A DNA stretch of 64,000 nucleotides. Origin: an uncultured Bacteroidales bacterium. Lineage in GTDB: Bacteria > Bacteroidota > Bacteroidia > Bacteroidales > P3. Each line of letters starts with the position of its first letter. Position 1 is the stretch's first letter. The position numbers and the translations under genes were made by a program. The notes under the pieces were generated by a model. It was not told where the DNA came from and ran no database searches. It saw nothing but the letters and a program-made list of their open reading frames with translations. This document shows positions 22,886-64,000 of this stretch, one piece after another. The stretch lies in assembly GCA_947168665.1 (NCBI GenBank), contig CAMVMX010000004.1, forward strand, positions 1 to 64,000, in the 5' to 3' direction.

Positions 22886-23494
22886 ATGAAAACACTGATA
22901 ATCATTTCACTGCTTACAATCGGAGCCCTCGTCCGCTGCTCCATATCCTCCCCCACCACAATGGCTCTTGACATGTACAAGCGCTATGCCGCACAGCCTG
23001 ACCGCCTGTTAGTGGCCTACGTGGGCGACTACCAAGCCCAAGGCCACACCTACCAAGCCCTCGTCCTCCAAGCCCGCGACAGCGCCGAGTGGGTCTGGCT
23101 ACAGCAGGAATTCAGCATCGGAACCACAGACGACCGCGTCGCCAGCAGCGTACTCACCGCCGACGGGCGCAACCTCGACCAAGCACAGCTCAGCAACCCC
23201 GACGGCTCAATCAAAGTATACCTGCGCCGCACCGTCGACAACCCCGACACCAGCCTGGTGCTCAAGCCGCGCAACCGCCTCGCCCCCACCACCCCGGACC
23301 AATCCCCGAAACCCGCCGGCCACAGCCATGCCCTCCGCATCAACATCACACGTCCGGGCCAGCCCAACCGCAGCGAAACCACCGGCTACGTGATGGGATG
23401 CGACCAAAACGAGCGCGCCCTCTGCCTGCTCTTCTACGAAACCCTCGACGAAGAACAGGCCATCCTCACACAAGTCCAAAAAAACATCTCCTGA
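22886..23494 (+). CDS. Secreted protein of unknown function in the ECF operon
   Basis: 202 residues, starting MKTLIIISLLTIGALVRCS at 22886. The N terminus is a signal-like helix; the Cys after Arg is not a good lipobox. Central beta-rich part (YVGDYQAQGHTYQALVLQARDSAEW) and a Pro-rich stretch before the end. No family recognised. Starts 13 bases after the anti-sigma-like gene, so it is likely co-transcribed and may belong to the sigma regulon. Confidence 0.6.
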   Translation: MKTLIIISLLTIGALVRCSISSPTTMALDMYKRYAAQPDRLLVAYVGDYQAQGHTYQALVLQARDSAEWVWLQQEFSIGTTDDRVASSVLTADGRNLDQAQLSNPDGSIKVYLRRTVDNPDTSLVLKPRNRLAPTTPDQSPKPAGHSHALRINITRPGQPNRSETTGYVMGCDQNERALCLLFYETLDEEQAILTQVQKNIS

Positions 23495-23854
23495 CCCCCC
23501 ATCCCCACCGCCCCGCACTGTCACATAACACCTTACTCATATTCTTCAGCGATGCCGCAGCCAGGCTGCGGCATCGCTCTTCCCCCGCCCGGCCCACACT
23601 GCTTATTCCCCACCTAAACACCATTCCCACCTCAACGCAAAGTCCATCTGCCCGGCATGAATCGCCCGTCGGCCGTGCATCAAACGAACCTGCAGCCCCC
23701 CCCGGCCCGAAAATCCTTTTTGAACATTTCTTTCCCTGAACATAATCCAATCCTGTCATTGTTCAGCAGAGCCGCACCTCGAGGCCGAAACTACAGCTGT
23801 TTTTTAACACTGACGTCCACAATAAAAAACGCCACAGGACGTTAAGAAAAGGTT
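23495..23854 (+). other. Intergenic region before the Nudix duplication
   Basis: 360 bases without a gene. It holds a perfect hairpin (AGCGATGCCGCAGCC at 23548-23562 with its complement ending 23578, a probable terminator for the ECF operon) and, from 23759, the beginning of the duplicated segment that carries the Nudix gene and its leader (near-identical to 25321 onwards). Confidence 0.7.
23548..23578 (+). terminator. Hairpin terminator of the ECF operon
   Basis: 15-bp perfect stem of AGCGATGCCGCAGCC with its complement; loop of a few bases; only a weak T tract (ctcttcccc) follows. Confidence 0.55.
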
Positions 23855-24262
23855 ATGATTATAACCTATCAAGACGCACTGCTACATATCGGGCCCGCTC
23901 CCGAAGGGACGGGCCGACAGCAGACTGAGGCCGGAGGCGACAATACAGAAAAGATGCTCGACAGCTGCTTCGACCGCATCGTGGCCGGAGAACGGGAGGT
24001 CTACGCCCCTGTGGCGGACGATTCCCGGCGGGTGGCGGCCTATCTCCACAACCGTTTCCGAATGGTGAAAGCCGCCGGAGGGCTGGTGACCAACCCTGAC
24101 GGCCACTGCCTGATGATACTGCGCGACGGGATGTGGGACCTGCCCAAGGGCATGGTGGAACACGGCGAGACCCTCGAACAAGCCGCGCTGCGCGAAGTGG
24201 AAGAAGAGACGGGCGTGAAAGCCTTTCCCCACCCCGCCCTCATCGGGAAGACTTATCACATT
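23759..24262 (+). repeat. Direct repeat copy 1 (Nudix 5' region)
   Basis: 504-base segment matching 25321-25824 at a fixed offset of 1562 bases. The first about 35 bases are diverged; from 23793 onward the copies differ at only a few positions (for example 23813 gacgtcc versus gacatcc, and a C/T in the codon for residue 129 of the product). It includes the leader, start codon and first 136 codons of the Nudix gene. Identity stops abruptly at 24262/25824. Confidence 0.9.
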
Positions 24263-24667
24263 CGAAGTGCGGCGGACTTCTGGGGAACGGTACTGGATAT
24301 TGGCCTAACGGCTGGTGCACAAACTTTTACCTACTGCGGGTTGGTTGCGCAGACGCTTGGTTTTTATTGCCTTATTATTCCAGGAGGAGGAGCGGTCGGT
24401 GCCGAATTATATGCTGTTGGCAATGCAATGTCAAGTATTGGGTTGGGACTTGATGCCATCAACAATATTTGGAAAGGGGACTGGGTGGGGCTATCTATGG
24501 ATGCTGTATCCATTGCTGTACCAAGAGGAATCTCCAAACAGATAAACAGAGGCATTTCTTCAGAATTCTTATCTGCCACTTCCAATGACGTTAATTTGTT
24601 AAATTGCTATATCTCTACACGATTTGGATATGCAACAGAAGCCATAAATATAGGGAGGAAGAAATGA
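23855..24667 (+). CDS. Truncated Nudix hydrolase fused to an Rhs-like effector tail
   Basis: 270-residue hybrid frame. Residues 1-136 equal the intact Nudix protein at 25417 (Nudix box G99 to V121). At residue 137, immediately after YHI, it switches to about 134 foreign residues: a Gly/Ala-rich hydrophobic stretch (IIPGGGAVGAELYAVGNA) and GLGLDAINNIWKGDWVGLSMDAV, the look of the pre-toxin helices of Rhs-type effector tails, then a short polar end. Base composition becomes AT-rich at the junction. The Nudix fold is cut after its catalytic box, so Nudix activity is doubtful. The stop overlaps the next gene by 4 bases. It may be a genuine chimera or a displaced tail that happens to be in frame. 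Confidence 0.55.
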   Translation: MIITYQDALLHIGPAPEGTGRQQTEAGGDNTEKMLDSCFDRIVAGEREVYAPVADDSRRVAAYLHNRFRMVKAAGGLVTNPDGHCLMILRDGMWDLPKGMVEHGETLEQAALREVEEETGVKAFPHPALIGKTYHIRSAADFWGTVLDIGLTAGAQTFTYCGLVAQTLGFYCLIIPGGGAVGAELYAVGNAMSSIGLGLDAINNIWKGDWVGLSMDAVSIAVPRGISKQINRGISSEFLSATSNDVNLLNCYISTRFGYATEAINIGRKK

Positions 24668-24918
24668 TGTGTGCTGGGATAAAAATCATTTTGGCGGTAA
24701 TGCTTACAATATTTTGCTATAAGTTCATAGCTGCTTCAAAAAAAAATAATGTGGGAAATATAGATGATTTCCGCAATGCAAATCTCATTAGAAAAATTGA
24801 TATGATTTTTACAGAAGAAAATGATTTGCTGCACGCAAATAAATTGAGAGATATTATTGGAATGGCAATTTGTATCATATTGATTGTATATTTGATTGTA
24901 TCTAGTATAATTGGATGA
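24664..24918 (+). CDS. Small two-TM protein, possible immunity protein
   Basis: 84 residues: TM helix about 4-23 (MCAGIKIILAVMLTIFCYKF), a charged middle (NNVGNIDDFRNANLIRKIDM) and a second TM helix about 64-82 (IIGMAICIILIVYLIVSSII). A good ribosome-binding stretch (gggaggaagaa) precedes the ATG, which overlaps the upstream stop by 4 bases, implying coupled translation. Low GC contrasts with the flanking genes. The coupled tail/two-TM arrangement is that of an effector tail and its membrane immunity protein, but no family is recognised and this is an inference. Confidence 0.5.
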   Translation: MMCAGIKIILAVMLTIFCYKFIAASKKNNVGNIDDFRNANLIRKIDMIFTEENDLLHANKLRDIIGMAICIILIVYLIVSSIIG

Positions 24919-24974
24919 TTCGTCGTGGCAGATGTTCGGCATCCCCTTGTTGTTCTCGTTGGGCTGGATTAGCA

Positions 24975-25142
24975 CCCGACCCGGCGGATGTTCGACACCG
25001 TGCCGCTGGTCTGGATTTGCAATCCAGACCCGTTGAGTATAAGGATTTTCAATCCTCAAAAGCAATCCCCGACTCGGCGGATGTTCCATGCCGTGCTGCT
25101 GGTCTGATTTGCAATCCAGCCCAACGGAGTAACTTACAATCC
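24975..25142 (+). repeat. Two imperfect 93-bp tandem repeats
   Basis: Units starting at 24975 and 25068 share CCCGAC[C/T]CGGCGGATGTTC, ccgtgc[c/t]gctggtctg and atttgcaatccag, with the second unit slightly shorter. Both contain short inverted motifs (ctggatttgcaatccag, ggattttcaatcc) capable of hairpins. Location inside the foreign insert suggests they travel with the Rhs material. Confidence 0.65.
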
Positions 25143-25206
25143 CCACCAGTCTCACTACGTCTACGACCCCGCGGGCAATCTGGTAAAGGAGTGGAATCCT
25201 CTATGA
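25108..25206 (+). pseudogene. Rhs/YD-repeat remnant
   Basis: A short frame reading ...NGVTYNPHQ then SHYVYDPAGNLVKEWNPL and a stop at 25204-25206. YDPAGNLVKEW is a typical Rhs/YD-repeat core. No longer frame extends upstream (a stop lies at 25105-25107). It is a fragment of an Rhs-family gene. Confidence 0.6.
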
Positions 25207-25320
25207 CACCTATTTCTCCTCCCTCTCTGCCGATTACATCCTCTGCGTCCAAACTGAAATCAACCTCCGTCCGGGAAAACTTTTGAGTTTTTCTTCGCCA
25301 AACAAAAAATCTTACTATTT

Positions 25321-25824
25321 TTGTTCAGCAGTGCCGCACTTCGGGATTGAATCCACAGCTGTTTTTTAACACTGACATCCACAATAAAAAACGCCACAGG
25401 ACGTTAAGAAAAGGTTATGATTATAACCTATCAAGACGCACTGCTACATATCGGGCCCGCTCCCGAAGGGACGGGCCGACAGCAGACTGAGGCCGGAGGC
25501 GACAATACAGAAAAGATGCTCGACAGCTGCTTCGACCGCATCGTGGCCGGAGAACGGGAGGTCTACGCCCCTGTGGCGGACGATTCCCGGCGGGTGGCGG
25601 CCTATCTCCACAACCGTTTCCGAATGGTGAAAGCCGCCGGAGGGCTGGTGACCAACCCTGACGGCCACTGCCTGATGATACTGCGCGACGGGATGTGGGA
25701 CCTGCCCAAGGGCATGGTGGAACACGGCGAGACCCTCGAACAAGCCGCGCTGCGCGAAGTGGAAGAAGAGACGGGCGTGAAAGCCTTTCTCCACCCCGCC
25801 CTCATCGGGAAGACTTATCACATT
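25321..25824 (+). repeat. Direct repeat copy 2 (Nudix 5' region)
   Basis: Partner of 23759-24262 at offset 1562. This copy continues into the rest of the intact Nudix gene, so it is the original or restored locus, and copy 1 ends at the foreign tail. Confidence 0.9.
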
Positions 25825-26034
25825 TACGACAAATACGGCGGCTGGCATCTGAAGCAGACCTCATGGTACGCCATGCGCGCCCCGCACACCCTCACCCGTC
25901 CGCAGACCGACGAGGCTATAACACAAGCCGTGTGGGCGTCCCGCCAAGTGTGCCTGGAACGGCTCAGCGGCTCGTACCGCTCGCTGCAGATTTTGGCTCA
26001 GACCTATAATAACCTTTATCCCGCAAAAGAGTGA
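25417..26034 (+). CDS. Nudix hydrolase
   Basis: 205 residues. Canonical Nudix box at residues 99-121 (G-x5-E-x7-REVEEETG-V: GMVEHGETLEQA then ALREVEEETGV), which binds divalent metal and hydrolyses a nucleoside diphosphate linked to X. An N-terminal region of about 65 residues precedes the fold, and the fold is completed by YHIYDKYGGWHLKQTSWYAM, which is lost in the copy at 23855. Substrate unknown. The stop overlaps the GTG start of dprA by 4 bases, so the pair is coupled. Confidence 0.9.
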   Translation: MIITYQDALLHIGPAPEGTGRQQTEAGGDNTEKMLDSCFDRIVAGEREVYAPVADDSRRVAAYLHNRFRMVKAAGGLVTNPDGHCLMILRDGMWDLPKGMVEHGETLEQAALREVEEETGVKAFLHPALIGKTYHIYDKYGGWHLKQTSWYAMRAPHTLTRPQTDEAITQAVWASRQVCLERLSGSYRSLQILAQTYNNLYPAKE

Positions 26035-27137
26035 ACCCATACCATATAGCCCTGACCCTTGTCCCCGGCCTTGGCAACAAGACTATCCGCCAACTGCTTG
26101 CCTGCTGTCCCAAGCCGGAGGAACTGTTCAGCATGTCGCGGCCACAGCTGAGAGAGATTTTCCAACGCCACGACGGGATTATCGCCTCCATCGAAAGCCG
26201 CCAACCGCTGGCCCAGGCCAAGCAGTCTGTAGCCGAAATGCAGTCGTGGGGCGTGGAGTGCCTCTTCTGTTCCGATACCGACTATCCCAAACGGCTGAAC
26301 GAGGCGGGATGCGAGGACTCGCCGGTGCTGCTGTACCGCATGGGGCGATGCGACCTCAACCCCCACCACAGCGTGGCCCTGGTGGGGTCGCGCAAATGCT
26401 CGGACTACGGCCGGACAACCACACACCGCCTGGTGCATGAGTTGGCGACCGACGGCGCCACAATAGTGAGCGGTCTGGCTTATGGCATCGACACCGCAGC
26501 CCACACTGCGGCCTTGGAGAACGGGCTGCCCACGATAGCCGTGCTGGGCCACGGGCTGGATATCGTATACCCCAGCCAAAACCGCCTGCTGGCAAGGCGT
26601 ATTGTGGAGCAGGGCGGGGCACTGCTGAGCGAATATCCGCTGCACACAGGCATCAACGCGGCCCACTTTCCGGCCCGCAACCGCATCGTGGCCGCCTTGG
26701 CCGACGCCACCATCGTGGTGGAGGCAGCGGAGCGAGGCGGAGCCTTGATTACCGCCAACATAGCCAACAGCTACAACCGCGAGGTGTTCGCCGTGCCGGG
26801 CCGGCTGTGCGACCCCCTCTCCGAAGGTTGCAACAACCTTGTCATCCACAACAAAGCCGTGATGATACGCAACGCGGGCGACCTGTTCTACCAGATGGGG
26901 TGGAAAAACACCTTCGACCAGCGGCGGCAGCGCGAGGAGCAGCTGGCCATATTCGCCTCGCTGGACAGCAACCAGCAGACTGTCGTGACCCTGCTGAAAG
27001 ACAATAGGGAAATGACCCTCGACGAAATCGTGGCTCAGAGCGGCCTGTCGCTGCCCAAGGCCGCATCGGTGGTGACAGATCTGGAGCTGCGGAATGTGGT
27101 GAGATGCTTGCCCGGCAGACTATATAAACTAAATTAA
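26031..27137 (+). CDS. dprA: DNA-processing protein DprA
   Basis: 368 residues from a GTG start overlapping the Nudix stop. DprA binds incoming single-stranded DNA and loads RecA during natural transformation. The Rossmann-like core shows VALVGSRKCSDYG, VSGLAYGIDTAAHTAAL, LGHGLDIVYP, LLSEYPLHT, FPARNRIVAALADATIVVEA and GGALITA. A C-terminal winged-helix-like segment (about 300-368; LLKDNREMTLDEIVAQSGLS) is present, as in many full-length DprA proteins. Confidence 0.95.
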   Translation: MNPYHIALTLVPGLGNKTIRQLLACCPKPEELFSMSRPQLREIFQRHDGIIASIESRQPLAQAKQSVAEMQSWGVECLFCSDTDYPKRLNEAGCEDSPVLLYRMGRCDLNPHHSVALVGSRKCSDYGRTTTHRLVHELATDGATIVSGLAYGIDTAAHTAALENGLPTIAVLGHGLDIVYPSQNRLLARRIVEQGGALLSEYPLHTGINAAHFPARNRIVAALADATIVVEAAERGGALITANIANSYNREVFAVPGRLCDPLSEGCNNLVIHNKAVMIRNAGDLFYQMGWKNTFDQRRQREEQLAIFASLDSNQQTVVTLLKDNREMTLDEIVAQSGLSLPKAASVVTDLELRNVVRCLPGRLYKLN

Positions 27138-63604: not shown

Positions 63605-64000
63605 TCAACGGGCGAAGGAGTTGACCTCCTCGGGGCGGATGGAAAGCACCGGGCGGGAGGACATGGTGAGCATCTGCTGCGCATAGTTGCCCAGCAGGAA
63701 ACTGGTGAGGGACGACTCCTGCTCGGTCATAATCACAATCATGTCGGCATTCACCTCGTCGGCATACTCCAACGTGGTGACCGTGAGATTCTTCGGCACA
63801 CTCACACACTTGCACACATGCTTCACGTCGGCCTTCGTCAGATAGTTGTCCACCTGGTTCACATAACTGTCTACAATGCCCTTGATGGTCTTATTGTCAG
63901 AGGTGTACAGCCCGAGAATATGTAACTCAGACCCGAACACCTTGGCGAAATTGGCTGCGGCGGGTACCTTCTGGCGCGTGTCGGCCGAGCTGTCGATGGG
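63605..64000 (-). CDS. Universal stress protein (partial, 5' end outside the window)
   Basis: 132 residues visible; the frame is open to the window edge (PIDSSADTRQKVPAAANFAKVFG at its start), so the apparent GTG at 63940 is internal. Shows the UspA-type pattern SELHILGLYTSD and a later DMIVIMTEQESSL, with the nucleotide-loop-like GNYAQQMLTMSSRPVLSIRPEE. UspA-fold proteins bind ATP in some cases. Confidence 0.85.
   Translation of the reverse strand, partial: PIDSSADTRQKVPAAANFAKVFGSELHILGLYTSDNKTIKGIVDSYVNQVDNYLTKADVKHVCKCVSVPKNLTVTTLEYADEVNADMIVIMTEQESSLTSFLLGNYAQQMLTMSSRPVLSIRPEEVNSFAR

Follow-up and report, generated by a model that had tools for sequence, protein, structure and literature searches.

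A probable recent rearrangement joins an Rhs C-terminal domain to half of a duplicated Nudix gene in an uncultured Bacteroidales bacterium

In an uncultured Bacteroidales bacterium the first half of a Nudix gene reads in frame into the end of an Rhs cassette, with a small two-TM gene directly behind the fusion and an intact copy of the Nudix gene further downstream. A sequence-only reading of this DNA had put the locus forward as a candidate new system; most likely it is instead a recent rearrangement of a cassette piece and mobile-element debris, and probably one in which a displaced Rhs toxin-immunity cassette became fused by chance to half of the Nudix gene.

Structure of the duplicated Nudix region

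The stretch of DNA that we analysed (the window) covers contig C4 (158,529 bases) from its first base to base 64,000; the contig belongs to a draft genome of 2,965,336 bases in 32 contigs with an estimated completeness of 99.24%. The features of the locus are collected in Table 1. The sequence-only reading had described a 504-base direct repeat at an offset of 1562, and this is present as 457 near-identical bases (23806-24262 against 25368-25824, with two differences, at 23815 and 24228) and a weaker left part that extends to 23759. The insert flanked by the repeat is AT-rich, as had been claimed, with a GC content of 0.446 in the tail and 0.287 in the small gene against 0.565 for the window. 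The description of the reading frames also proved accurate: the frame of Nudix copy 1 runs from its start at 23855 into 134 foreign residues and on to a stop at 24667 (270 aa in all), this stop shares four bases (ATGA) with the 84-residue two-TM gene, whose ATG lies at 24664, and the Rhs core fragment YDPAGNLVKEWNPL and then the intact Nudix gene (25417-26034) are present downstream.

Table 1. Features of the Nudix-Rhs locus, in window coordinates
Feature	Position	Strand	Remarks
Degenerate right end of IS30 type, ahead of Nudix copy 1	23702..23796	+	local alignment
Direct repeat, copy 1	23759..24262	+	copy 2 at 25321-25824; near-identical from 23806
Partial Nudix gene (copy 1; residues 1-136) with an intact Nudix box	23855..24262	+	
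End of Rhs C-terminal cassette, fused in frame, with stop	24263..24667	+	8 linker residues, then complete toxin-specific domain (~126 aa)
84-aa two-TM presumed immunity gene	24664..24918	+	4-base overlap with fusion
REP-like repeats	24972..25133	+	94% identical to C3:200203-200365
REP-like repeat plus a truncated piece of Rhs core (YDPAGNLVKEWNPL)	25065..25207	+	25065-25202 92% identical to C3:196971-197108
IS30-type transposase gene 3' end and element end	25206..25357	+	80-84% to C2:62466-62606
Intact Nudix gene (copy 2), then dprA	25417..26034	+	

Six neighbouring genes examined between 18605 and 28769 encode AsmA, a sigma factor, two proteins without a Pfam family, DprA and the ATP synthase beta subunit; a gene without a Pfam family (22907-23494) borders the Nudix region upstream, and dprA and atpD lie downstream. 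In both copies the Nudix box, GMVEHGETLEQAALREVEEETGV, starts at residue 99. The Nudix domain is incomplete in copy 1, where residues 137-205 have been replaced, and the Pfam Nudix match stops there at profile position 81 of 134, as against 115 in copy 2. Copy 1 also carries a proline at residue 126, where 29 relatives show ten other residues and never proline; we did not count the proline as a sign of decay.

At E 1e-20 the Nudix protein matched 101 of 119 genus genomes (18 had no match), with two matches in the genome under study and one in each of the other 100. Among the 29 relative loci compared, those of the best matches, dprA follows the Nudix gene on the same strand in 22; in the other seven the Nudix gene is divergent from dprA, or dprA was unmatched within the compared stretch. 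The closest Nudix locus (L028, 69% identity) has the gene order of the window, namely a sigma factor gene, two genes that match no family, and then Nudix, dprA and atpD. Given one match per genome in the relatives and this undisturbed order, we take a single-copy Nudix locus to be the ancestral state.

The tail is an Rhs C-terminal domain

Scored on residues 137-270 in the protein database, the fusion retrieved itself (P0001) and three other proteins, P0002, P0003 and P0004. The tail matches P0002 at 133 of its 134 residues, the remaining residue being an extra glycine, and is 75% and 60% identical to P0003 and P0004, respectively. These three proteins, 305-322 aa long, start near an Rhs core end, which is followed by the motif VDPDG, about 98 residues of linker and finally a C-terminal domain. 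The sequence-only reading had called the tail an Rhs tail, and rightly so: the same domain follows the Rhs core ends of P0002-P0004, which makes the tail a true C-terminal domain of Rhs type. From where it sits in such cassettes, the domain is presumed to be a toxin.

The boundary of the toxin-specific domain was set from a locus of the same genus (L073, in G062), whose product is identical to P0002 at 39 of 47 positions through ...SIHQSAADFWG and at 1 of 28 beyond that, diverging after FWG. The L073 protein carries a DUF4258 domain after the linker that it has in common with P0002, and different domains thus stand behind a common linker, as expected of an exchangeable set of which DUF4258 is a further member. 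That DUF4258 stands exactly where the domain of the tail begins also rules out the possibility that the tail is pre-toxin only.

The junction (KTYHI/RSAADFWG) lies 8 residues ahead of the toxin-specific domain, the whole of which is kept, and the Rhs core, VDPDG and about 90 linker residues are gone. The fusion thus departs from an Rhs effector at the core: its Rhs part starts at RSAADFWG, inside the linker, and not at the core/tail boundary. The proposal in the sequence-only reading of a possible novel effector-capture route, with the 5' half of a Nudix gene in place of the shared core, finds no support: the junction falls inside the linker, VDPDG and some 90 residues are lost, the arrangement occurs in one of the genomes searched, and REP-like, Rhs-fragment and IS30 debris makes up the rest of the insert.

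A protein database search with the tail alone gave 38 candidates and none at E 0.1, because only proteins of similar length were considered as candidates. Neither Pfam nor PHROGs gave a match for the tail, and NCBIfam gave nothing better than E 0.09 and 0.17; P0002 reached E ~0.01 with PHROGs families of unknown function. No solved structure matched a query of linker plus domain (A3), Rfam gave no match over 23400-26100, and the AlphaFold models, from 3 and 4 sequences, were unusable (mean pLDDT 29.4 and 37.7). Over its last 57 residues (250-306) P0004 matched SieB (superinfection exclusion) below threshold, at E 0.043 and 13.8 bits against a cut-off of 26, a weak lead to a membrane-related activity of the domain. 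We considered the case for a membrane-acting toxin weak, the hydrophobic stretches of the tail scoring only 1.47-1.53 and none reaching 1.4 in P0003 or P0004. Named records with the same Rhs linker are Bacteroidales MAGs. A Bacteroidales Rhs cassette at L057 (7749-8594) has this linker and a hydrophobic, glycine-containing tail, and the next gene downstream of it also has hydrophobic stretches.

The small two-TM gene

A ribosome-binding-site-like sequence, GGGAGGA, lies just 5' of the ATG of the 84-aa gene. One hydrophobic stretch of the encoded protein covers residues 1-26, with a Kyte-Doolittle maximum of 2.14, and the other residues 55-84, with a maximum of 2.89; the protein has no Pfam family, and in PHROGs it reached E ~0.01 with families of unknown function. 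A database search listed 13 relatives, 12 of which (69-96% identity) were aligned; P0017 was left out. P0017 is a 53-aa form in which about 45 residues identical to the 84-aa protein are followed by a different end, and appears as a second rearranged version of the small gene. At column 75 of the alignment the window protein has valine where all 12 relatives have glycine. A search of 120 genus genomes gave the gene in one, that under study.

We presume the 84-aa gene to be an immunity gene from its position behind the tail; the label comes from position, since none of the relative loci examined pairs the small gene with the toxin. With its own ribosome-binding-site-like sequence, and with the Nudix start upstream, the gene may protect against the cognate toxin.

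Sources of the remaining insert

The REP-like repeats and the cut Rhs fragment match the Rhs locus of the same genome, which lies on contig C3 and thus on a different contig from the fusion; neither this match nor the IS30 end described below had been picked up in the sequence-only reading. The Rhs gene there encodes 2075 aa within the stretch examined, with TcdB_toxin_midN, RHS repeats and a Peptidase_M91 end. In the surrounding region (L017; G000:C3:190000-206000) a small gene follows the Rhs gene, and then a displaced 770-aa Rhs cassette, which has a different tail, another small gene and the same REP-like repeats alongside. The palindrome TCTGGATTTGCAATCCAG occurs at 10 sites in the genome, five of them exact (the window included) and five with 1-3 mismatches; the backward-read control had no site in the genome. 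The sites are at 25010-25027 in the window and at C2:54899, C2:56919, C3:84439, C3:200033, C3:200241, C3:200334, C13:108974, C15:33796 and C23:89, and several of these copies adjoin Rhs cassettes.

The segment at 25206-25357 is the 3' end of an IS30-type transposase gene with the element end, an identification made through its C2 relative: C2:62330-62527, which overlaps the aligned C2 stretch, matches NF033563 at positions 194-267 (56.2 bits). The segment also matches C4:142935-143001 in part, and its IS30 protein alignment scored 107. A second partial IS30 match beside these stretches covers NF033563 positions 1-105 (69.5 bits); both of these own-genome matches are partial and below the family cut-off of 80 bits.

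A degenerate IS30-type end was also recognised upstream of Nudix copy 1. It scored 24.5 against the C2 IS30 end (L018), where the best of 1000 shuffles scored 16.5, and 23.0 against the C4 IS30 copy, versus 17.5 in shuffles; 0 of 1000 shuffles was as good. Upstream of Nudix copy 2 the informative sites to 25320 are 17 IS30-like versus 4 copy-1-like, those at 25321-25358 are mixed (5 IS30-like versus 7 copy-1-like), and beyond 25358 the sequence is that of copy 1 save for one base.

Distribution of the fusion, tail and linker

Among 190 family genomes the tail was found in one, that under study, three weak partial matches being left uncounted. We set aside these three genus matches, which have E values of 0.003-0.009 and 27-32% identity over part of the tail; the one inspected, L024, is on the strand opposite to an open frame of 1098 aa. 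With linker plus domain as the query, 120 genus genomes gave the own locus and 8 others, none of which extended past model position 109, L072 ending at a contig edge right before the domain and so not covering the domain region; 393 order genomes gave the own locus and 6 others, all inside positions 5-83, which is the linker. A genome scan with the tail alone (63 stretches) gave no relative, and one with linker plus domain (70 stretches) gave 4 loci, with matches confined to tail residues 1-89. A scan of viral contigs (149 stretches) returned none, and no second copy of the tail was found in the own genome.

The Nudix-tail arrangement was therefore seen in one genome only among the genomes searched. 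The identical fusion protein is present in the database once more, on a 117,729-base contig, in an entry that has 2 member sequences. No mention of a Nudix-Rhs toxin fusion appeared in the titles and abstract openings of the papers listed in literature searches, in a coverage that leaves out most subscription papers. A scan of the own genome for TssD found none, but the controls likewise gave none, so that the result carries no weight.

Comparison with known Rhs modules

Orphan Rhs modules were described by Poole 2011 (PMC3150448). In Salmonella an orphan Rhs toxin fragment is reported to become expressed and delivered once it is fused to the main rhs gene (PMC3967940). The locus resembles these modules in having a toxin domain without a core or start and a small gene directly behind it, and in that recombination can place the toxin behind a new start; here too the toxin fragment has no core or delivery part of its own. 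Unlike those modules, it does not lie downstream of the main rhs gene, which is on C3 whereas the fusion is on C4, and it is joined to a Nudix fragment.

The toxin-specific domain is identical in kind to that of the displaced Rhs cassettes P0002-P0004. In the displaced cassettes (P0002-P0004; L017, L058 and L059), however, core end, VDPDG and linker are all still present, and the window copy has lost these; L058 and L059 contain arrays of core-end/tail/small-gene units. Retained orphan immunity genes have been described in gut Bacteroidales (rAID; PMC12247911) and in Vibrio (PMC5361080). As in the rAID case, a presumed immunity gene is present without a delivered effector; unlike it, the locus has no recombinase or immunity array among the six neighbouring genes examined, and the 84-aa protein is a two-TM protein outside any Pfam family.

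A recent rearrangement and its alternatives

In the rearrangement that we favour, synthesis during copying or repair of the Nudix gene would have jumped at CACATT to a P0002-like donor, entering a displaced Rhs toxin-immunity cassette within its linker and needing hardly any homology, if any, to do so. The toxin domain, the small gene, the REP-like repeats, the cut Rhs core fragment and the IS30 3' end would have been copied next, and synthesis would have rejoined the chromosome by way of the IS30 end that already preceded the Nudix gene, so that the 5' part of that gene was copied twice. Such a template switch, or an equivalent break repair, is the simplest history and would account for a duplicated stretch that starts at an IS30 end and runs as far as the first joint. 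While the pieces, their sources and the boundaries of the insert can be read from the alignments, the order of switching, and a donor with all the pieces in a row, are what we infer from one genome; no donor with all the pieces in this order was found.

The rearrangement is consistent with a tail that is the end of Rhs cassettes, with the 92-94% identity of the REP-like and Rhs pieces to the C3 locus of the same genome, with the IS30 end that also precedes Nudix copy 1, and with the mixed sites upstream of copy 2. Counting against it, the toxin-specific domain has stayed whole and in frame and shows no decay, with the junction only 8 residues before it, as would seldom be expected from a random break, and the own-genome IS30 matches are all partial and under 80 bits. 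The product of the fusion would be a stranded orphan, unlikely to act as a delivered effector because the core and VDPDG region that normally precede an Rhs tail, and most of the linker, are absent.

Given that the toxin-specific domain is complete and undecayed, an intracellular chimeric protein is possible, with the Nudix promoter, start and 5' half driving expression of the toxin domain and the immunity gene. The in-frame fusion, the 133 of 134 residues unchanged relative to P0002, and the retention of the ATGA overlap and GGGAGGA all agree with this, as does the Salmonella case, in which an orphan Rhs toxin is re-activated through fusion (PMC3967940); but the partner there is the main rhs gene, of which this locus has none, only a truncated half of the Nudix fold is left, and in a single genome a recent event would look no different. 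We regard an expressed chimera as very unlikely, and find it just as improbable that the Nudix 5' half was recruited, with the IS30 end as the joining point, so that what had been a secreted effector pair became a toxin-immunity module of the chromosome, addiction-like or defensive in role. It is also unlikely, if less so, that selection keeps the 84-aa gene against neighbours with a P0002-type toxin, the tail being a passenger. An intact gene with 12 aligned relatives at 69-96% identity, and the precedents for kept orphan immunity genes in Bacteroidales (PMC12247911) and Vibrio (PMC5361080) would fit such selection; recent age accounts equally for the intactness, however, the pairing with the toxin was found in no other genome examined, no immunity array or recombinase stands among the six neighbouring genes examined, and the valine at column 75 departs from the glycine of the 12 relatives. 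The least probable of the alternatives, in our view, is a repeat-induced mis-join of Rhs and Nudix contigs during assembly. While the genome is a draft in 32 contigs with repeats at the joints, no long repeat is present at the first of these, the two copies and their upstream stretches differ, and the same fusion protein, with its 2 member sequences, is also on a contig of 117,729 bases, against 158,529 for C4.

Significance

As a probable recent rearrangement, the locus is a well-preserved snapshot of Rhs toxin and immunity pieces leaving their home locus and becoming joined to other material, which includes REP-like repeats, an IS end and half of a housekeeping gene. It exposes an unnamed toxin-like domain (that of P0002-P0004) and a small two-TM family. 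Were the fusion expressed, it would represent a route from a secreted effector to an intracellular toxin-immunity pair.
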